A stretch of DNA of 56,428 bases, from positions 1-56,428 of the forward strand of contig JAFUNR010000014.1 of the NCBI GenBank assembly GCA_017472965.1, given 5' to 3'. Position 1 is the stretch's first letter, and each line of letters begins with the position of its first letter. This document shows positions 1,490 through 21,197 of the stretch, one piece after another. A program made the position numbers and the translations under genes. Origin of the DNA: Oscillospiraceae bacterium. GTDB taxonomy: Bacteria; Bacillota; Clostridia; Oscillospirales; Ruminococcaceae. The notes below the pieces were generated by a model. That model was given only the letters and a program-made list of their open reading frames with translations, ran no database searches and was not told the DNA's origin.

Positions 1490-2959
1490 ATGACTGCAAC
1501 ACATTCTCTACGCCGGGGCTTCTGGGGCAAAATCATCGGCGACAGGGCGTTTTATGCCATGGTGCTGACCATCGCCGTGCCGATGATCGTACAGAACGCC
1601 ATTACCAACTTTGTCAGCCTGCTGGATAACATCATGGTGGGTCAGGTAGGCACCGAGCAGATGTCCGGCGTGGCCATTGCCAACCAGCTGATTTTCGTTT
1701 TCAATCTGTGCGTGTTCGGCGGCAACGGCGGCGCGGGCATCTTTACCGCCCAATTCCACGGCAAGGGCGATCCCGACGGCATCCGTTACACCATGCGCTT
1801 CAAGATGATCCTCTCTTTGCTGCTTTCCACCGCAGCCATCACTTTGTTCACCCTGTGCGATGCTGCGCTGATCGGGCTTTTTCTGCATGACGGCAGTGCC
1901 AGCGGCGACCTTGAGCTGACGCTTGTTTCCGGCAGAGAATACCTGCGGGTGATGATCTTCGGCCTGCTGCCCTTTGCCATTATCCAGACCTATGTGGGCA
2001 CCCTGCGCGAGGTGGGCGAAACCAGCCTGCCCATGAAAGCGGGCATCGCCGCGGTGCTGGTCAATCTGGTATTCAACTTTCTGCTGATCTACCCCACCCG
2101 CACCCTGCATATCCTGGGCGTTTCCTTCACCATGGTCGGCGCCGGCTGGGGCGTGGTGGGCGCGGCAGCGGCCACGGTGCTCTCCCGCTTTGTGGAGCTT
2201 GCCATCGTCATCATCTGGTCGCACCGCCATACACAGCGTTTCCCCTTCTTCAAAAAGGTGTGGCGCAGCCTGCGGCTGCCCGGGCACCTTGTCCGGGATA
2301 TCATCCTGCGGGGCATGCCGCTGCTGGTGAATGAATTCATCTGGAGCTTCTCCATGACCGCCATCAACCAGTGCTACTCGGTACGCGGTCTGGCGGTAGT
2401 GGCGGCCATCAACATCGCCTCCACCATTTCCAATCTGTTCAATGTGGTGTACATGTCGCTGGGCAACGCGGTGGGCATCATGGTGGGCAAGCTGCTCGGT
2501 CAGGGCAGCATGGACGAGGCTGTGGACACCGACCGCAAGCTGATCGCCTTTGGCGTGGGAATGTCGATGATCATCGGCGGTCTGCTGGCGGTCACTTCCG
2601 GTCTGTTCCCGCTGCTGTACAACACCACGGACGAGGTACGGGAGCTGGCCGGCTACCTGATCATGTGCTCCGGTCTGCTGATGCCGATGTTCTCTTTCCT
2701 GCACTGCACCTACTTCACGCTGCGCTGCGGCGGCAAAACGGTGGTCACCTTCCTGTTTGACTGTGTGTTCATCTGCTGTGTCAACCTGCCGCTGGCGTAC
2801 TGTCTGGCGCATTTCACCGCCGTGGATATCCGCGTGCTGTATCTGGCGGTGCAGCTGGTGGATCTGGTCAAATGCATCATCGGCTTTGTGCTGGTGAAAA
2901 AAGGCATCTGGATCAACAACATCGTAGGCGGCAGCAAAGATGCCGCGCCCGCACAGTGA
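1490..2959 (+). CDS. MATE-family efflux transporter (first of a tandem pair)
   Basis: A 489-residue polytopic membrane protein of the multidrug and toxic compound extrusion family, which exports organic cations or other small molecules by Na+ or H+ antiport. The ATG at 1490 has GGAGG at 1476-1480; the longer upstream frame has no ribosome binding site and runs over the tRNA. The N-terminal half has the family pattern of VPMIVQNAITNFVSLLDNIMVGQ followed by glycine-rich turns (FGGNGGAGIF), and the protein alternates about 12 hydrophobic segments with a KKGIWINNIVGG-type C-terminal tail. The next gene, 40 bases downstream, encodes a close paralogue with the same length and the same tail, so the two form an operon produced by duplication. 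No local regulator is present. Substrate unknown. Confidence 0.92.
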   Translation: MTATHSLRRGFWGKIIGDRAFYAMVLTIAVPMIVQNAITNFVSLLDNIMVGQVGTEQMSGVAIANQLIFVFNLCVFGGNGGAGIFTAQFHGKGDPDGIRYTMRFKMILSLLLSTAAITLFTLCDAALIGLFLHDGSASGDLELTLVSGREYLRVMIFGLLPFAIIQTYVGTLREVGETSLPMKAGIAAVLVNLVFNFLLIYPTRTLHILGVSFTMVGAGWGVVGAAAATVLSRFVELAIVIIWSHRHTQRFPFFKKVWRSLRLPGHLVRDIILRGMPLLVNEFIWSFSMTAINQCYSVRGLAVVAAINIASTISNLFNVVYMSLGNAVGIMVGKLLGQGSMDEAVDTDRKLIAFGVGMSMIIGGLLAVTSGLFPLLYNTTDEVRELAGYLIMCSGLLMPMFSFLHCTYFTLRCGGKTVVTFLFDCVFICCVNLPLAYCLAHFTAVDIRVLYLAVQLVDLVKCIIGFVLVKKGIWINNIVGGSKDAAPAQ

Positions 2960-2999
2960 CGAAAGCGCTGTACACCGTTCGCTTTTTGGGAGGCCATCC

Positions 3000-4466
3000 A
3001 TGAGCACACTTTCTCTGCGCCGGGGATTTTTGGGCAAATTCATCGGCGACAAGGCGTTTTATTCCATGGTGCTGGCGCTGGTGCTGCCCATGATGCTGCA
3101 GGATGCCATCACCAATTTTGTGGGCCTGCTGGACAATATCATGGTGGGGCAGACCGGCACCGAGCAGATGTCCGGCGTGGCCATCGCCAACCAGCTGCTG
3201 CTGGTTTACAATATGAGCATCTTTGGCGGCAACGGCGGCGCGGGCATTTTCGGCGCACAGTTTTACGGCAAGGGTGATCCGGACGGCGTGCGCCATACGC
3301 TGCGCTACAAGCTGCTGCTGGGCGCGGGGCTTTCCGCTGCAGCCATGGTGCTGCTGGCGGTATGGGATGAACAGCTCATCGGGCTTTTTCTGCACGAAAG
3401 CGCCGACGGCGGCGATCTTGCGCTGACACTGCGGGCAGGCTGCAGCTACCTTGCTGTGATGCAGGCGGGTATCCTGCCCTTTGCCGTCACCCAGGCCTAC
3501 GCCACCACGCTGCGCGAATCCGGCGAGACGGGGGTGCCCATGAAGGCGGGCATCACCGCGGTATTTGTCAATCTGGTTTTCAACTTCCTGCTGATCTACC
3601 CCACCCGCACCCTGCATATTCTGGGCGCTTCCTTCACCATGATCGGCGCCGGCTGGGGCGTGGTGGGCGCGGCAGCGGCCACGGTACTCTCCCGCTTTGT
3701 GGAGATGAGCATCGTGATCCTCTGGGCACACCGACACACGCAGCGTTTTCCCTTCTTCAAAAAAGTCTGGTGCAGCCTGCGGCTGCCGAAGCGTCTGGCG
3801 GCGGATATCACCGTCAAAGGGATGCCGCTGATGGTCAACGAGCTGCTGTACACCGTTGTGCTGACCTTCATCAACCAGTGCTACTCCATGCGCGGGCTGA
3901 CGGTGGTGGCAGCCTTCAACATCGCCAACACCATCGCGGGGCTTTTCACCGTGATCTCGGCTTCGCTGGGCAGCGCACTGGGCATTGTGGTGGGACAGAT
4001 CCTCGGCGAGGGGAATATGGAAAAAGCGGTGGATACCGACCGCAAAATGATCGCCTTTGCCGTGGCGGTGGGCGCTGCGGTGGGCGGTTTGCTGGCGGTG
4101 GCTGCAGAGCCCTTCCCGCTGCTGTACAATACCACCCCTCAGGTACGGGAGATGGCCAGCGGTCTGATCGTCATCATCGGTATATTCACCCCGATGCACG
4201 CCTTTTTGCAGTGCTGCTATTTCACGCTGCGCTGCGGCGGCAAGACCGGCATCACCTTTATCTTTGACTGTGCCTTCATCTGCCTGGGCAACCTGCCGCT
4301 GGCATTCTGTCTGGCGCACTTCACCGACATGAACATCCTGTGGATGTATGTCTGCGTGCAGGCCTTTGATCTGACCAAATGCCTGTTCGGCTTCCTTATG
4401 GTAAAAAAAGGCGTGTGGATCAACAACATCGTAGGCGGCACCGCCGCGCAGGAAGCCGCACCGTAA
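3000..4466 (+). CDS. MATE-family efflux transporter (second of a tandem pair)
   Basis: A 488-residue paralogue of the preceding protein, starting at ATG 3000 behind GGGAGG (2988-2993). Identity to the first copy is high throughout and almost complete in the central block (NLVFNFLLIYPTRTLHILG, then GAGWGVVGAAAATVLSRFVE). There the DNA also shares long identical stretches, suggesting recent duplication or gene conversion. It has about 12 membrane segments and the same NNIVGG tail. MATE proteins work as monomers, so the pair probably differs in substrate range rather than forming a dimer. A bidirectional terminator follows at 4484-4542. Confidence 0.92.
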   Translation: MSTLSLRRGFLGKFIGDKAFYSMVLALVLPMMLQDAITNFVGLLDNIMVGQTGTEQMSGVAIANQLLLVYNMSIFGGNGGAGIFGAQFYGKGDPDGVRHTLRYKLLLGAGLSAAAMVLLAVWDEQLIGLFLHESADGGDLALTLRAGCSYLAVMQAGILPFAVTQAYATTLRESGETGVPMKAGITAVFVNLVFNFLLIYPTRTLHILGASFTMIGAGWGVVGAAAATVLSRFVEMSIVILWAHRHTQRFPFFKKVWCSLRLPKRLAADITVKGMPLMVNELLYTVVLTFINQCYSMRGLTVVAAFNIANTIAGLFTVISASLGSALGIVVGQILGEGNMEKAVDTDRKMIAFAVAVGAAVGGLLAVAAEPFPLLYNTTPQVREMASGLIVIIGIFTPMHAFLQCCYFTLRCGGKTGITFIFDCAFICLGNLPLAFCLAHFTDMNILWMYVCVQAFDLTKCLFGFLMVKKGVWINNIVGGTAAQEAAP

Positions 4467-13207: not shown

Positions 13208-15616
13208 TCAGGGATTGGTGACATAGCACCAGCCGTCCAGACTGCCGAAGCTAACGGCAAAGCGCAGCCGCCAGCTGCCGTCCTCCTGCCGCTGACCCAG
13301 CGGAAGCAGGATCGTGCCGTTGCTGTCCTTTACCGGCGACCATGCCTCGGTGCGGGCATCGCCCTCCAGCGCCAGCGTGCGCCATGTGCTGCCGCCGTCG
13401 TCGGTGGCGTGGACGGTCAGACCGCTGCCGTAGCGTTCGCACAAAAAGCCGGTATTCTCATCCACAAAACCCGCACCGCTGAGCTGACCACACAGAGCTG
13501 CGGGGGCGGTCAGCGGCTGCTCGCGCCAGCTGACACCGCCGTCCGATGTGAAAAACAGCCGGTGCGCCGCACCGCCCGCAGCGGGGGTATCCTCTGCCAC
13601 GAGCCAGCCGTGCTGTGCCGAGGTGAAGCCGATGAAAAGCTTTGCGGCAGAGGTCTCCAGCACGGCGGTCTGCCAGCTGGCGCCGCAATCGGCGGTGACG
13701 GCGATCTGCACGCCATCCGCCGCGGGCAGACACAGCGCCGAGACCGTCTCGCTGACGAATACACCAAGCCCTGCCGCCTGTTCGGCATTCTCCGGCGACA
13801 GGCAAAGCGGACTTTGTGCACTGTGTGCACCGCTGCGCCATGTGAGCACCAGCCCGCCGTCTGCATCCGCGTACCAGCCGCCGCCGTTTTCCAGCCAGTT
13901 GAAAAGCTCGCCGCCGGCGGCGCGGGAATATGCCGCCCCGCAGACCGTCTGCCCCGCAAAGCCGCCCGCACGGACAGGCGCAAGGGCATAGGGCAGCGAG
14001 GGCGCCGCCTGCACGGCCTGTTCGCTCAGTGCATTTTCCAGCGCGAGGGCGGCATCGGCATCCAGCGGCGGCAGGCGAAAATGCGCCGTGCGGCCATCCT
14101 GCACCAGAAATGCCACTGCGCCCTGCGGGTAGATGCTCAGGCAGCTGCCGTCCGGTGCGGCGGCAGTCAGACAGGAGACCGTCCAGCCCGCCTCAATATA
14201 CGGCTCGTAACGCTGCCAGCTTTCGGGGTGCAGCGCATCGAAGAACTGCTGCTGCAGTGCGCCGGTCAGCTCAAAGCGGGTATCGAAGCTGGCGGGGCCC
14301 AGCGTATCGATGCCGATAACGGTAAAATCCGTCAGCTGCGCCGGAAAAAGCGCCGCGCCGGCAGCGGGGCTGTTTGCCGCCGCAGCCAGAAACGCCGCAG
14401 CAGCGGCAGCCGTTCCCTGCGGCAGCCGCCATGCCAGCGGCTGCTGCCAGCTATTGGGAGAGAGATACAGCGCCGCATCGCCCCGCAGCACAAGGCGGCC
14501 GCGCCCCTCATTCACAAAAACCGTGCCGCCGTCATACCACTGGCCGGGGGTAAGGGCGTTTTCCGTCTGTACCCAGCGCTCCGGCTGCAGCAGCGCGCAC
14601 AGCTGCGCCTGCTGTTCGGCGCTCAGAGCCTGCTTTTCCAGAACCGAGCCCTCCCAGAAAGAAGCGGTATCCCCGCCTGCTTCGGCATAGCCGGCATAGG
14701 CAAGCCCCTGCGCAGGGGCAAAACGGATGACATTCAGCAGACCGGAAAGCTGCGGCCAGAGGGAAAGCTCCAGCGCGTAATACGCGGGGCTGCCGTCCCG
14801 CAAGGTCTCCGTCAGCTGGATGATACCGGCGCTGCCGCCGATACACACATCCAGCGCGTAGCCGCCTGCGGTGTACAGCGTACCGCCCGCCTCCCGCAAG
14901 GAGGAGCTGACAGCGGCGGCTGACAGCGGCTGCCACGGGGCGCTTTGCAGCAGCGCCCAAAGCGCTTCGCTTTGCTGCGGCGTGACGGCGGCTGCGCCCA
15001 GCGGCTCGCCGAAATCACCGCGCTCGGTCACCAGTGCGCAGAAGGGCTGCTGCAATGCATCCCCCGTTGCCGCGGCGGCAAGCTGCTCATGCAGAAGCTG
15101 CAGCGCCTGTGCCTCGGTAGGAGTGACGGCCCAGCACTGCAGCGTGCCGCTGTAATCGCCGCGCAGATACACCTGCGCACCGCCGCACCAGAAAAGCTGC
15201 GCCCCCTGCGGATTTTTTGCGCCCAGCAGCACGCTGTCCCCCACGGCGGCGGCATCGGCATCCTGCAGCCGCAGCCAGCCCTGCGGGCACAGGGCATCCG
15301 TCAGCAGGCTTCCGGCGGCGGCGGGAAGGGTGCACCCGCCGTCCTCGCCGGGACAGACGGCATACAGCAGGCTCAGGCTTTCCACCGAAAAGGGCAGCTG
15401 CCCGTTGGGAATGATCCCGCCGGCAAACTGCGCATTCAGCACCGGCGGCTGCAACACCGCATCGGGCAGCTCTTCGGAGGGCTGCGATGCGGGGGCACGC
15501 TGACTTTCGGGCAGATCGCCGCCGGCGGACATGCATCCGCACAGCACAGCCGCGCTGAAAAGAACGCACAGCGCCAGCGCCGCTGCGCGGCAGCGGAAAA
15601 CGGACGGTTTCTTCAT
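13208..15616 (-). CDS. Large lipoprotein with C-terminal Asp-box (BNR-like) repeats
   Basis: An 802-residue secreted lipoprotein. The N-terminus has basic residues, a hydrophobic core and a lipobox (VLCGC, lipidated C28), then a Pro/Ser/Glu linker. The bulk is beta-rich and low in recognisable motifs. The last about 170 residues contain sialidase-type Asp boxes (TSDGGVSWRE and TDDGGSTWRT, plus a degenerate TADCGASWQT) as in BNR/YCF48-like propellers. No catalytic sialidase residues are evident, so a binding or structural role outside the membrane is more likely than hydrolysis. It lies 172 bases downstream of the M56/solute-binding fusion on the same strand but beyond that gene's terminator. 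The ATG at 15616 has AGGAG about 9 bases upstream. Confidence 0.7.
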   Translation of the reverse strand: MKKPSVFRCRAAALALCVLFSAAVLCGCMSAGGDLPESQRAPASQPSEELPDAVLQPPVLNAQFAGGIIPNGQLPFSVESLSLLYAVCPGEDGGCTLPAAAGSLLTDALCPQGWLRLQDADAAAVGDSVLLGAKNPQGAQLFWCGGAQVYLRGDYSGTLQCWAVTPTEAQALQLLHEQLAAAATGDALQQPFCALVTERGDFGEPLGAAAVTPQQSEALWALLQSAPWQPLSAAAVSSSLREAGGTLYTAGGYALDVCIGGSAGIIQLTETLRDGSPAYYALELSLWPQLSGLLNVIRFAPAQGLAYAGYAEAGGDTASFWEGSVLEKQALSAEQQAQLCALLQPERWVQTENALTPGQWYDGGTVFVNEGRGRLVLRGDAALYLSPNSWQQPLAWRLPQGTAAAAAAFLAAAANSPAAGAALFPAQLTDFTVIGIDTLGPASFDTRFELTGALQQQFFDALHPESWQRYEPYIEAGWTVSCLTAAAPDGSCLSIYPQGAVAFLVQDGRTAHFRLPPLDADAALALENALSEQAVQAAPSLPYALAPVRAGGFAGQTVCGAAYSRAAGGELFNWLENGGGWYADADGGLVLTWRSGAHSAQSPLCLSPENAEQAAGLGVFVSETVSALCLPAADGVQIAVTADCGASWQTAVLETSAAKLFIGFTSAQHGWLVAEDTPAAGGAAHRLFFTSDGGVSWREQPLTAPAALCGQLSGAGFVDENTGFLCERYGSGLTVHATDDGGSTWRTLALEGDARTEAWSPVKDSNGTILLPLGQRQEDGSWRLRFAVSFGSLDGWCYVTNP

Positions 15617-15709: not shown

Positions 15710-15740
15710 AACAAAAGGCCGGTGCACCGCGGCACCGGCC
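15710..15740 (-). terminator. Terminator of the M56 fusion gene
   Basis: Minus strand GGCCGGTGC / GCACCGGCC perfect 9-bp stem with 6-base loop, followed by TTTTGTTT. Confidence 0.7.
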
Positions 15741-15788: not shown

Positions 15789-18700
15789 CTACGCCTGTTC
15801 ATCCAGATAGGTCTGGATGCGGTTCTGGATGACGGCGGCGGTCTCGGCGGCGGTGCGGATACCATTATAATAGTAATCGGCTTCCTCAAAGAGGATATCC
15901 ACCACAGTGGAATCAAAACGGAAGAAGGTATCGGTGGCATCGATGAGCGCAAGCAGCGCATCGCATTCCTGCTGCGTGATGGCGCGGCTGAAGTACGCGC
16001 GCTGCGCCTCCGTCAGCGGTTGCGGAACGCCGGAGGGCACCGAAAAGCTTGTGCGGTCATCCTTCTGCATACGCCGGATCAGCTTGCGCACGGCATCCTG
16101 CCGCAGGGGCAGCTGGTGCTGCATCTGCGCATCCTCCAGCAGAGCCTCCTGATAGGCGGGCAGCAGAAGCTGGCGCACGAACCGCCATGCGGTATCGGGA
16201 TCGGCGCAGGTGCTGCGGATGCCCACCTGCCAGCCAGCCACAAAACAGCTGCCGCTGCCGCCCTCTGCATTAGGATAGCCGGTGAAGGTGATGGGGCCAT
16301 TGAAATAGTAGGTCACCTCGGGGAACGAGGAGAAGGTGAAATAATCTGCCGCATACAGCAGCGCTTCGCCCTGTGCAAAAACCTGTTTCGGATCGGCGGT
16401 AAGATCCGTTTCGGCAGGGTAGGCGGCGCAGGATTCCAGCAATTGTATAAAGGCGGGGGTATTCAGATATGCCTTGCCGGCGGAATAATCGATGAAGCTT
16501 TTGCCGGCGGCATTGAGCTGATACCACAGCAGCAGATCGCGGCTGTAGCCATAGAACGGGGTGGCACAGCCGGCGGTGGCTTCGGCAAACTGCTGCGAAT
16601 TCCAGCCGGTGAGCGTGCCGAAGCGTTCGGCGCTGCCCAGCACGGTTTTGATCCCGAAGGAGGGTGCAACGGTGAGCAGCCTGCCGCCCTGCTCGCAGGC
16701 TTTCAGTACAGAGGGGAAGAAATCCTCACGGGAAAGCTCAGGATCTGCATCGATGTAGGGATACAGATCAGCAAAAAGCCCCTTGTTATACAGATCGGCG
16801 CTGCTGGCAGAGGTGGCGGCAAGCACCACATCCGGCCCGCCGCCCTGTATCAGGTGACGGCCCAGCATGTCCAGACCGCTTTCAAAGCCGGCCTTTTCGG
16901 CGGCGGCATCGCTGTAATCCAGCAGCTCCACCCGGACATCGGCATTGGCAAGGTTGAATTCCTCGATGGCGGTGCGGAAGGAATCGCTCACATTCGTGCC
17001 GCCCACGGTGATAACGGCGCGGCTGTCATCGGAAAGGGGTACATTTTCTGCCAAAGATACGATTCTGATACGGTTCTTATTTGCCTCGTAGTGCAGCAGC
17101 CGGTCATCCTGCAGCACAATATCAAATTTCGATGTAAAGAAATCCGATGCACCTGAAGCCTGCCAGTCGTACAGACGGGTCAGCTCGTTCCTGTCCACAT
17201 CCCATCGATACAGACCGTGGGATGTGCTCAGGCACGCGGTGCTGCTTCGCTGTGATACCGGATACTGCGGCAGCCAAAGGTTTCCGCCTCCATGCGGCAG
17301 AAGTTCATCCGAAGGCACGCTGAAAGGTTCCTTCACAGCAAAGCTGCCCTTCTCCGGCTCAAGAATATAGAAGGTGGATTCACCGGTAAGAAATTCGTAT
17401 CCGTTTTCCATGGGATTCAGCGGACAGAGCTGCAGCAGAACGCGGCCGTCTGCAAGAGCCTGAATGCCGCTGACATCCGTACATTCCGGCAGCTCAATAT
17501 CCGCCGCCAGACTGCCGTCTGCGGTTGAAAATACCAGCAGGTGCTCTTTTTGGGAAAAATCCCGCGGCCAGCCCGCATAAGTCTGCTGCCAGAGGAACCC
17601 CGGGGTGTGCCCCACCGGAGTAAGGCTCATTTTGCCGGTCATTGTATAATCAACGCGGATCCCCTCACCCACCCGGCCATTTTCATCAATGGGGCTCAGC
17701 CGCAGTTCACCGGAAACATTTTCGACATCCTCGCCCTCGCCGGTACGGACATACATATACCACATAGCCCATGGACGCTCATCGCCCATATCCAGCAAAC
17801 GTTCCACAAGGAAATAAAGATATTGACCCTCCGGCAGATTTTCCACCAGCGCGGGATCCGGCTCCGGCAGCACGATATCCATCACCTGCGGATCGCTGCC
17901 GTCCAGCCCCACGCTGGCGATGGTTTTCTGGGTCTTTACAGCCTGCCGATCGATCCAACGGTAGCCATAGGTCCACAACCGGTCACCGATCAGCACACTG
18001 TAGGCTTCAGCACTCCAGTCCATGTAATCGCCGAACTGTGTCGCTACAGTCTTCATTGACTGCGGCTGCGCAGTATCGGATACCAGCGCCGCAACAGCCC
18101 TTTCTTCCTTGCCGGCACTCATAGTATCCACCGCCGCATCGCTCTCCGTCACAGGAACGCTCCCGCTTTCTGTCGGGCCGAGCACGGCGGCGCAGCCGAT
18201 CAGGCCAAGCGCCAGCACCGCGCAGAGCAGTGCGGTGAAAAAGCCCTTCTTTTTATACTTCATAATGTTCACCAGCCTTTCTTTCAGCTGCTGTCTGCGC
18301 TCGCAGACGGCGGTCAGCGGCACGGCGGCGCGGCGGCTGCCGGCAAAGGCCAGCAGCGTTTCGCCGTAGTGCTGCTTTTCGGCGGCGGTCATGGTGCGGA
18401 TCACCTGTTCATCGCAGGCAAGCTCGCAGGCGCGGGATATCTGTTTTTGAAGCAGCCACACCAGCGGGTTGAACCAGTGGACACAGGCGGTGAGCGCTGC
18501 CGCCCATTTGAGCCAGAGATCGCCCCGGCGGTAATGGGTAAGCTCATGGCGCAGCACGGCGGTCAGCCGTGCGGGATCCTGCAGGGCAGGGCTGCCCGCA
18601 GGCAGCACCACCACCGGCTGCAGCAGCCCCAGCGCCATGGCGCCGGTTACGGCGGTGCTGCCGATAATGCGCAGACGGCTGCCGTGATAAAGACACCCGA

Positions 18701-19337
18701 ACACCGCGTGAGCGCCGTCAGAGACATCCTGCGCCGCGCGCAGCACGCGGCGGCGGAACAGTGCATAATTTACCGCCAGCCGCAAAGCAAAAGCGCCCGC
18801 GCCTGCCGCCCATACCCAAAAAAGTGTCCGGTACAGCCGCTGCTGCGCCGTACCTGCACGCACCTGCTGCTGTTCCTCCAGCAGCCGCACAAGAGAATCC
18901 GGCGGCTGCGCGGCGAGGGCCTGCTGCTGCGCTTTGACCGCGGCTTTTTCTTCGGCAGCGGGCTTTTGCGGGTAATCGATCTCAAAGGCGGCCATGCCGG
19001 TTTTGCGGGGCAGGGTCTGCGGCTGCGGCTGTTCCAGCAGGCTGGCGCCGGGGATGGCATCCAGCTGCCGCTGCACGGCGGCCTCGGCTTCGGCCTGCGC
19101 GGCCGCTTCGGCGTGCTGCATCTTCCGTTCCAGCTGCGTGAAAAGGGCAGGGCTCTCCTGCCCGCCCGGCACGCCGAACGGGAGCATCAGCCGCAGCAGC
19201 ACCAGCGCCCACAGCCCGCAGCAAAACACCCTGCCCAGCCGTGCGCCCCACAGCTTATCCACGGCCCACACCGCCAGCCCCAGCGCCGTACCCGCCAGCG
19301 AGAGCCACCCAAGCAGCAACAAAAAGTCCTTCATCAT
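15789..19337 (-). CDS. M56 (BlaR1-type) sensor protease fused to an extracellular beta-rich segment and a solute-binding-protein domain
   Basis: A 1182-residue protein. Residues 1-390 are a BlaR1/MecR1-like membrane protease: hydrophobic segments at about 5-25, 38-56, 170-193 and 277-296, zinc motif HELTH at 264-268 and the downstream glutamate in ACELACDEQ (E305). A last membrane segment at about 366-385 ends in GLIGC. An unusual Ala/Gln/Glu-rich, probably coiled stretch fills residues 65-160. In place of a penicillin-binding sensor there is an extracellular region: about 430-770 is beta-rich and propeller-like, and about 775-1080 is a family 1-type ABC solute-binding domain (GPDVVLAATSASSADLYNKG, LFADLYPYID, then GYPNAEGGSGS and DPDTAWRFVRQLLLP). 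Sensing would trigger cleavage of the BlaI protein encoded just upstream, whose stop overlaps this start in ATGATGA. Ligand unknown, perhaps a sugar or peptide. Confidence 0.85.
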   Translation of the reverse strand: MMKDFLLLLGWLSLAGTALGLAVWAVDKLWGARLGRVFCCGLWALVLLRLMLPFGVPGGQESPALFTQLERKMQHAEAAAQAEAEAAVQRQLDAIPGASLLEQPQPQTLPRKTGMAAFEIDYPQKPAAEEKAAVKAQQQALAAQPPDSLVRLLEEQQQVRAGTAQQRLYRTLFWVWAAGAGAFALRLAVNYALFRRRVLRAAQDVSDGAHAVFGCLYHGSRLRIIGSTAVTGAMALGLLQPVVVLPAGSPALQDPARLTAVLRHELTHYRRGDLWLKWAAALTACVHWFNPLVWLLQKQISRACELACDEQVIRTMTAAEKQHYGETLLAFAGSRRAAVPLTAVCERRQQLKERLVNIMKYKKKGFFTALLCAVLALGLIGCAAVLGPTESGSVPVTESDAAVDTMSAGKEERAVAALVSDTAQPQSMKTVATQFGDYMDWSAEAYSVLIGDRLWTYGYRWIDRQAVKTQKTIASVGLDGSDPQVMDIVLPEPDPALVENLPEGQYLYFLVERLLDMGDERPWAMWYMYVRTGEGEDVENVSGELRLSPIDENGRVGEGIRVDYTMTGKMSLTPVGHTPGFLWQQTYAGWPRDFSQKEHLLVFSTADGSLAADIELPECTDVSGIQALADGRVLLQLCPLNPMENGYEFLTGESTFYILEPEKGSFAVKEPFSVPSDELLPHGGGNLWLPQYPVSQRSSTACLSTSHGLYRWDVDRNELTRLYDWQASGASDFFTSKFDIVLQDDRLLHYEANKNRIRIVSLAENVPLSDDSRAVITVGGTNVSDSFRTAIEEFNLANADVRVELLDYSDAAAEKAGFESGLDMLGRHLIQGGGPDVVLAATSASSADLYNKGLFADLYPYIDADPELSREDFFPSVLKACEQGGRLLTVAPSFGIKTVLGSAERFGTLTGWNSQQFAEATAGCATPFYGYSRDLLLWYQLNAAGKSFIDYSAGKAYLNTPAFIQLLESCAAYPAETDLTADPKQVFAQGEALLYAADYFTFSSFPEVTYYFNGPITFTGYPNAEGGSGSCFVAGWQVGIRSTCADPDTAWRFVRQLLLPAYQEALLEDAQMQHQLPLRQDAVRKLIRRMQKDDRTSFSVPSGVPQPLTEAQRAYFSRAITQQECDALLALIDATDTFFRFDSTVVDILFEEADYYYNGIRTAAETAAVIQNRIQTYLDEQA

Positions 19338-19705
19338 TCTTCCTCAACGCGGAACATGGCGCTCAGCTCGGCGAGGTCGGCAGCGCTCAGGGCGCCATCC
19401 TCCACCAGTGCAGCCACCAGTTCCTTTGCATTGCCCGAAAACAGCTTTTCCACAAAATGCCGCGCCGTGTGCCGGTTATAGTTTTCCTGCGCGGTGAGCG
19501 CACGGTAAACGCCGCGGCTTTCCAGCGCGACGGCGCCCTTTGCCATCAGGCGGCGCAGCAGGGTCTTGACAGTGGAATCCTCCCACCCACAGCGCTCGCT
19601 CAGCGCATGGCGGATCTCCGCCAGCGGCAGCGTTCCCCCCGCCGCCCACAGCACCTGCAGCACTGCCAGCTCGGAATCCTGAATTTTCGACTCTTCCTTT
19701 TCCAT
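19334..19705 (-). CDS. blaI: BlaI/MecI-family transcriptional repressor
   Basis: A 123-residue winged-helix repressor from the ATG at 19703-19705 behind GGAGG (19715-19719). The core ELAVLQVLWAAGG, then CGWEDSTVKTLLRRLMAKGAV and RGVYRALT are the BlaI/MecI DNA-binding signature, and the C-terminal half (VEKLFSGNAKELVAALVE) is the dimerisation helix region. These proteins dimerise on TACTNNAGTA-type operators and are inactivated by cleavage when the partner M56 sensor is triggered. Translation is coupled to the fusion sensor downstream. Two matching operators cover the promoter at 19738-19792. There is no beta-lactamase gene nearby, so the regulon is something else. Confidence 0.92.
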   Translation of the reverse strand: MEKEESKIQDSELAVLQVLWAAGGTLPLAEIRHALSERCGWEDSTVKTLLRRLMAKGAVALESRGVYRALTAQENYNRHTARHFVEKLFSGNAKELVAALVEDGALSAADLAELSAMFRVEEE

Positions 19706-19737
19706 GGCCTGTATCCTCCGTTTTCGCATCCATAAAA

Positions 19738-19792
19738 GTTTACTGTAGTAATCTTCTATTTACAGGTTACCACAGTAAACTTTCTCTGTCAA
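19738..19792 (-). promoter_or_regulatory. blaI promoter with two BlaI-type operators
   Basis: Minus strand -35 TTGACA (19787-19792), 17 bases, TGG-extended -10 TAACCT (19764-19769). Two 14-base arms, GTTTACTGTAGTAA (19738-19751) and TTACCACAGTAAAC (19767-19780), are inverted copies with one mismatch. Each contains a TACTNNAGTA-like core (19741-19750, and TACCACAGTA at 19768-19777). This is the MecI/BlaI operator pattern, placed to block the promoter, so the operon should be self-repressed. Confidence 0.8.
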
Positions 19793-19892: not shown

Positions 19893-21197
19893 ATGAACGA
19901 ACTGAATGCCCGTCTGCTGGATTTTATCCGCCGCAGTCCCACCGCGCTGCATGTGAGCGCCAACGCCGCCGCCGAGCTTGCCGCCGCCGGTTACACCGAG
20001 CTGGATGAGTGCGCCGACTGGCAGCTTTGCCCCGGCGGGCGCTATTTTGTACGGCGCAATTCCAGTGCTCTGATCGCCTTTGCTCTGCCCGCCGACTGTA
20101 CGCGGACGCATTTTCAGATCTTTGCCGCCCACACCGATTCCCCCGCGCTGCGCGTCAAGACCGCATGGAAGCTGGAGGATAAGCTGTATCTGCGGCTGAA
20201 TGCCGAGACCTACGGCGGCGGATTGTGGGGCACCTGGAGCGACCGGCCGCTTTCGGTGGCGGGCCGCGTGGGCGTGCGCACCGAAAACGGCGTGCGGATG
20301 CAGCTGGTGAACATCGACCGTGATCTGCTGATGCTGCCCAGCGTGCCCATCCACTTCAACCGCGAAGCCAACAACGGCGTCAAGATCGACCCGCAGGCCG
20401 ATCTGTGCCCGGTGCTGACGATGGATACCTCGCTGACACTGGAACAGCTGCTGGCTGAGGAGATCGGCTGCGCCGCGGAGGATATCCTTTCCCATGAGCT
20501 GATGGTCTACTGCCGCAGCCAGGGCTTCTGCTGGGGCGCACGGGAGGAGTTTCTCTCCTGCCCGCGGCTGGATGATGCCGCCTGCTGCTTTGCCGGTCTT
20601 GCCGCGCTGCTGGAGAGCGGTGACAAGGGCCGCAGCATCCGTATGCTGGCCTGTATGGATAACGAGGAGTGCGGCAGCACCACCCGTCAGGGCGCGGTGG
20701 GCACCTTCCTGATCGACACGCTGGAGCGCATCGGCGAGGCGCTGGGCTGGAGCCGCAGCCGCCTGCTGGCCGCACAGGCCGGCAGCTATATGCTGAGCGC
20801 CGACAACGCCCATGCGGTGCATCCCGCCCACGGCGAGCTGTACGATGCAGCCAACCGCACCGCCATGAACGGCGGCGTGGTGCTCAAGCACGCGGTGGCA
20901 TATTCCACCAGCGGCGAAAGCGACGGCATTCTGCGGGCGCTGTGCAAAAAGCACGGTCTGCCCCTGCAGGATTTTGCCAACCGCAGCAACATCCGCGGCG
21001 GCAGCACGCTGGCCAACATCGCCACCACCCATCTGAACATCCGCATGGCGGATATCGGCCTGCCGCAGCTGGCCATGCACGCCTCCTTTGAGACCATGGG
21101 CGCAAAGGATCTTTCCGACATGGTGGAGCTTGCCCGCCATTACTTCGGCGAGACACTGACCGTGGCCGCCGAGGGCGATTACCGCTGGGAGGCATAA
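19893..21197 (+). CDS. apeB: M18-family aspartyl aminopeptidase
   Basis: A 434-residue zinc aminopeptidase that removes N-terminal acidic residues from peptides in the cytosol. Metal and catalytic motifs are in order: AAHTDSP (H80, D82), the YGGGLWGTWSDRPLSVAGR block, CMDNEECGS, SYMLSADNAHAVHP and the C-terminal MHASFETMG. Length is typical of the family. I chose ATG 19893 with AAGGAGG (19877-19883); a TTG two codons earlier is possible. It is transcribed away from blaI, and the two share a 187-base intergenic region, so the BlaI operators could also touch its promoter, although the predicted -10 (TAGAAT, 19848-19853) lies outside them. Confidence 0.92.
   Translation: MNELNARLLDFIRRSPTALHVSANAAAELAAAGYTELDECADWQLCPGGRYFVRRNSSALIAFALPADCTRTHFQIFAAHTDSPALRVKTAWKLEDKLYLRLNAETYGGGLWGTWSDRPLSVAGRVGVRTENGVRMQLVNIDRDLLMLPSVPIHFNREANNGVKIDPQADLCPVLTMDTSLTLEQLLAEEIGCAAEDILSHELMVYCRSQGFCWGAREEFLSCPRLDDAACCFAGLAALLESGDKGRSIRMLACMDNEECGSTTRQGAVGTFLIDTLERIGEALGWSRSRLLAAQAGSYMLSADNAHAVHPAHGELYDAANRTAMNGGVVLKHAVAYSTSGESDGILRALCKKHGLPLQDFANRSNIRGGSTLANIATTHLNIRMADIGLPQLAMHASFETMGAKDLSDMVELARHYFGETLTVAAEGDYRWEA

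Follow-up and report, generated by a model that had tools for sequence, protein, structure and literature searches.

A BlaR1-type membrane protease joined to a beta-propeller and a putative sensor of solute-binding-protein type in an Oscillospiraceae bacterium

To our knowledge, BlaR1 and MecR1 are known almost only as antibiotic sensors. Here, we analysed a window of 56,428 nucleotides (positions 1 to 56,428 of contig JAFUNR010000014.1, Oscillospiraceae bacterium assembly GCA_017472965.1) and confirm that it encodes a membrane receptor joining a BlaR1-type protease half to a sensor that resembles a sugar-binding protein, with two copies in this genome. We consider it probable, if short of assured, that this receptor is a BlaR1-type transmembrane anti-repressor in which the penicillin sensor has been replaced by a propeller and a type-1 solute-binding module with kin in a large lipoprotein family. 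Its parts are as follows.

15789..19337, minus strand: receptor gene, 1182 amino acids, M56 protease, beta-propeller and solute-binding domain
18534..18548, minus strand: HELTH zinc motif, residues 264-268, H264, E265 and H268 being shared by all 30 aligned M56 domains
18408..18431, minus strand: ACELACDE, residues 303-310, with the third zinc ligand E305 and also D309
18192..18203, minus strand: lipobox LIGC, residues 379-382, closing the last membrane helix
17040..18071, minus strand: beta-propeller, residues about 423-766
15792..17033, minus strand: CUT1-type solute-binding domain, residues about 769-1182

The protease module is intact, as an earlier reading of the letters without database searches (the sequence-only reading) had claimed: Pfam PF05569 (M56) scores 150 bits against a cut-off of 31, and H264, E265, H268 and E305 are all present. 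A 30-row M56 profile aligned with Staphylococcus aureus BlaR1 (8exp) over 316 positions (E 1.4e-28), placing receptor residues H264, E265, H268, E305, D309, Y324 and R354 opposite BlaR1 H201, E202, H205, E242, D246, Y261 and R294, the active-site numbering being that of the S. aureus BlaR1 paper. All seven receptor residues are invariant across the 30 aligned M56 domains, and the spacing differs from that of BlaR1 solely at R354, by 3 residues. The receptor has in common with the BlaR1/MecR1-BlaI/MecI systems of staphylococci and bacilli the M56 active-site residues and an alignable membrane part, as well as an overlapping blaI-type gene and paired dyads before blaI. In contrast, Pfam gave no match to a penicillin-binding (class-D-like) C-terminal sensor in the receptor at E up to 1, the propeller and solute-binding domain standing there instead, and the NCBIfam equivalog blaR1_generic scored 90.7 bits against a cut-off of 400, with the match confined to residues 164-365. 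The receptor most likely works like BlaR1 yet, lacking the defining penicillin sensor, is not a BlaR1.

The beta-rich region that had been noticed behind the membrane segment is identified here as the propeller, and the solute-binding domain proposed as the sensor is borne out by a Pfam SBP_bac_1 score of 32.6 bits (cut-off 26) and by a two-lobe solute-binding protein (SBP) fold in the predicted structure. The nearest solved relative, CbpC of Clostridium thermocellum (7x0o), has the same SBP fold and C-terminal tail, but it is a transporter-associated SBP whose solved chain of 438 residues carries neither propeller nor protease. Since the solved relatives are, among the matches listed, sugar binders for the most part, and since kin of the sensor on contig C37 adjoin permease and glycosidase genes, the ligand would, by analogy, most likely be an oligosaccharide.

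The receptor gene is preceded by a repressor gene and by operator-like sites. For BlaI sites, lipoboxes and promoters, the consensus sequences used are general background.

19334..19705, minus strand: blaI-type repressor gene, 123 amino acids from an inner ATG, an earlier ATG at 19729 being possible
19740..19751, minus strand: operator-like dyad 1, TTACTACAGTAA
19767..19778, minus strand: operator-like dyad 2, TTACTGTGGTAA

The blaI and receptor genes overlap by 4 bases, and the blaI product scores 86.9 bits with Penicillinase_R. Two TTACNNNNGTAA dyads lie upstream of blaI, compared with 0.10 expected in the window, and both sit inside a longer perfect inverted repeat, AAAGTTTACTGT...ACAGTAAACTTT. 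A TTGACA read by eye at 19787-19792 suggests a blaI promoter; dyad 2 would overlap the spacer and -10 of this putative promoter, which the two dyads would cover. The same dyad pair precedes the second receptor operon, which lies on contig C37. The close-pair pattern matches the window alone, and a single-site search for TTACNNNNGTAA found 14 places in the 2.9-Mb assembly (85% complete), 4 of which make up the close pairs in front of the two receptor operons; only there do two sites lie near each other. The other 10 fall inside called genes (4), between called genes (5; L085, L086, L089, L097 and L098) or in a stretch with few called genes (1; L092), and are no more than chance, because a reversed control pattern gives 43 places. 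The single dyads do not support a wider regulon. Other blaI genes of the genome (on C46, C31 and C9) are preceded by different dyads. Given that close pairs occur only at the two receptor operons and that the other blaI genes differ, the visible output is autoregulation. The M18 aminopeptidase gene (19893-21197, plus strand), whose start lies 115 bases beyond the end of the dyads, was also considered as a divergent target; it is not favoured, the second receptor operon having no such divergent neighbour.

If the receptor is indeed a BlaR1-type anti-repressor, BlaI would repress the blaI-receptor operon by binding the two dyads. Closing or movement of the extracytoplasmic SBP, caused by a solute (an oligosaccharide being likeliest) or by a docking partner, would be passed via the propeller and the last helix to the M56 domain, which may cut BlaI and so derepress the operon.

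The same coupling recurs in unfused form. M56 matches number 7 in the genome (C50 and C56 seem to carry one and the same gene), and propeller-SBP proteins likewise 7, namely the two fused ones, three on C9 and two on C37. On C9 (L018:9153-19626), blaI is followed by an M56 protein that contains three M23 wall-peptidase stretches and then by propeller-SBP lipoproteins, three in tandem; this arrangement is an unfused relative of the receptor operon. On C37 (L017:884-13290), two permease genes, HlyD- and MacB-like proteins, two propeller-SBP lipoproteins and GH32/fucosidase-like genes share one strand; as a separate observation, the HlyD-like adaptor and the MacB-like protein there stand in one cluster with a likely sugar importer. 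In a quick tree, a branch (100) set the seven sensors of this genome apart, with the two fused ones as sisters (91) and the three from C9 as their nearest kin (99). With at most 2 candidates scored per genome, sensor-type matches at E 1e-20 were present in 53 of 396 family genomes, there as lipoproteins. Such a lipoprotein sits directly behind blaI-M56 in two genera (L111 of G391 and L149 of G392), compared with about 0.02 such neighbours expected, a rough estimate from 73 M56 rows and an estimated about 160 SBP rows listed. Genome G013 has blaI, an M56-M23 protein and a shorter SBP.

The sequence-only reading had also suggested searching other genomes for this domain order. Besides the C37 copy in the same genome (39% identity), a third fusion was found in another family of the order (G051, L160:717-4420), where blaI is followed by a 1042-aa M56-SBP protein. 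This protein matches the sensor profile with its SBP half (E 4.5e-22; hhalign 99.1%), and its middle part may be a propeller; it is without a lipobox, and a different operator-like dyad, GGTTTACCAAGGGTAAACC, lies upstream of its blaI. No further fusion was found among 74 M56 frames. A three-fusion profile was searched against genomes of the order (394) and of the class (391), two sets that overlap, with about 2 candidates per genome scored; among the matches listed, it returned only G000 and G051, both part of the query. Rescanning 40 loci (L160-L199), 20 of them chosen mostly for long M56 frames, gave no other fusion, a sampling that could miss some. Genus g120 has frames longer than 1000 aa with SBP matches; in three of these loci (L066, L067 and L079), HExxH was absent from the two longest frames, all of them cut by the locus ends. 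The fusion is rare but real. The same two kinds of gene do exist as unfused neighbours, as would be expected if two adjacent genes had been wrongly joined by assembly or gene calling. However, the receptor frame is open and without stops, a second full-length copy lies on another contig and the third fusion belongs to another family. These independent copies refute such an artefact in practice, and we give it next to no weight.

Several points weigh against the anti-repressor mechanism. The receptor does not conserve the Phe found at the autocleavage site of BlaR1, and plain phmmer with the receptor against PDB at E 0.1 did not reach BlaR1, which only the 30-row profile did. The other two fusions score 22.1 and 19.7 with SBP_bac_1, short of its cut-off of 26. 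The automatic promoter scan listed no blaI promoter here, and we see no target gene outside the operon: the 85%-complete assembly has no further close pair among its 14 exact sites, degenerate or single sites being possible. Of the complete BlaI circuit previously proposed, the overlapping blaI and the dyads stand, but no regulated gene is seen beyond the receptor's own operon. Moreover, the M56 part of the receptor is not closest to that of C9. For this reason the fusion is not simply a collapsed C9 operon, an origin we do not favour: although the sensors are nearest kin, the M56 parts are not. As for the ligand, its description as nutrient-like was a guess. According to PMC9601137, CbpC bound none of the tested sugars, its pocket being blocked by a loop, and an earlier study cited there reported binding of cellodextrin and glucose. 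The SBP domain might accordingly bind no small solute, either acting as a protein-interaction module (e.g., docking on an ABC permease or a wall component) or having lost its cleft, so that the receptor would sense a partner or the state of the envelope. The blocked pocket of CbpC speaks for this, and the M23 wall-peptidase domains of the M56 partner in C9 and G013 hint at wall sensing. Nevertheless, the earlier report of sugar binding and the permease and glycosidase genes beside the family members on C37 point the other way, and we think this alternative improbable.

The internal lipobox might, in addition, sever the sensor from the protease. LIGC follows a KYKKK stretch, and its C382 shares an alignment column with the Cys of the lipobox in lipoproteins of the family (this alignment misplaced the M56 segments and was used for that column alone), and the C37 copy has LCGC at the corresponding place. 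A lipobox-like motif ends the last helix in 17 of 72 M56 proteins, compared with 6 of 215 helices elsewhere in these proteins (Fisher p 3.6e-7), although the motif is wide and at least 2 matches (L099 and L127) are mid-helix and probably false. The strict consensus, counted in last helices, is found in 12/72, and in 15/72 proteins the motif begins 10 or more residues inside the helix. By sample, the motif occurs in 16/41 of the nearer set and 1/31 of the class set, that one mid-helix. Counting was restricted to these 72 proteins: repeat loci were dropped, as were M56 frames lacking HExxH, those with a short tail, those whose last helix had a mean hydropathy under 1.2 and those with a duplicate protease motif. 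We know of no internal lipobox shown to be cut. The receptor has its lipobox where BlaR1 has a signal-peptidase site: according to PMC9834060, the signal peptidase SpsB cuts S. aureus BlaR1 at Gly331, in the linker after the last helix, and the sensor is shed. It is conceivable, though unlikely, that C382 is lipidated by Lgt and the chain cut there by signal peptidase II, making the sensor a separate lipid-anchored SBP; the protease state would then report cutting, sensor turnover or lipoprotein maturation and not ligand closure. Against this, the motif is absent from the third fusion and from 55/72 M56 proteins and is rare in the class sample, and the papers listed by the literature searches include neither one on the cutting of an internal lipobox nor one in which BlaR1 and a lipobox occur together. 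A broader version, to which we attach somewhat less credence, is that the M56 receptors in this lineage have a functional internal site for lipoprotein processing, with captured lipoprotein sensors lipidated and cut at the lipobox and the protease reading the cut, bound or mature state. If true, such a receptor would use proteolysis to sense lipoprotein maturation or solute occupancy, a principle other than penicillin acylation.

As the sequence-only reading had supposed, no characterised system of this design was found among the papers that the literature searches listed. The M56-M23 fusion proteins of C9 and G013 are like the receptor in combining M56 with another envelope domain behind blaI, with SBP genes following; in them, however, M56 is joined to a wall-peptidase domain, and the SBP is encoded separately. 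M23 proteins with an M56 domain are also mentioned in PMC9662197. In CuaD-CuaS-CuaR of Ruminiclostridium cellulolyticum (PMC10384115), an SBP is devoted to signalling, but as a separate protein acting via a two-component system and without a protease fusion.

Two further features belong to the receptor gene and its 3' side.

18843..19169, minus strand: long loop, residues 57-165, between membrane helices 2 and 3, at the position of extracellular loop EL1 in BlaR1 (from sequence and alignment to BlaR1 8exp; boundaries approximate)
15717..15740, minus strand: GC-rich hairpin, a perfect inverted repeat and probable terminator 3' of the receptor gene, absent from the automatic terminator list

Directly behind the operon, past this hairpin, lies a large protein (13208-15616, minus strand) with a lipobox-like start and a Ycf48/BNR-like stretch. 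Farther off, two adjacent transporter-like genes with similar N-termini (1559-4466, plus strand) are presumably MATE-type paralogues. Elsewhere in the genome, C50:4286-5236 and C56:1572-2522 apparently hold the same 894-aa M56 gene, and C56 (6.5 kb) may be a redundant contig. Among the scanned M56 frames longer than 1000 aa, 3/7 have no recognised domain besides M56 at E 0.01; frames of 1828 aa (L196, G838) and 1723 aa (L197, G813) have very large C-terminal parts without a sensor-profile match.

Among such long M56 proteins the receptor is a good entry point, its ligand-binding fold being recognisable. Our results suggest that an antibiotic-sensing design has been re-used for sensing something else. 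The recurrence of M56-SBP coupling, fused and unfused, makes it testable whether the chassis is a general plug-in receptor that takes its sensors from neighbouring lipoprotein genes, and likewise whether the lipobox is a lipoprotein-type counterpart to the signal-peptidase site of BlaR1.
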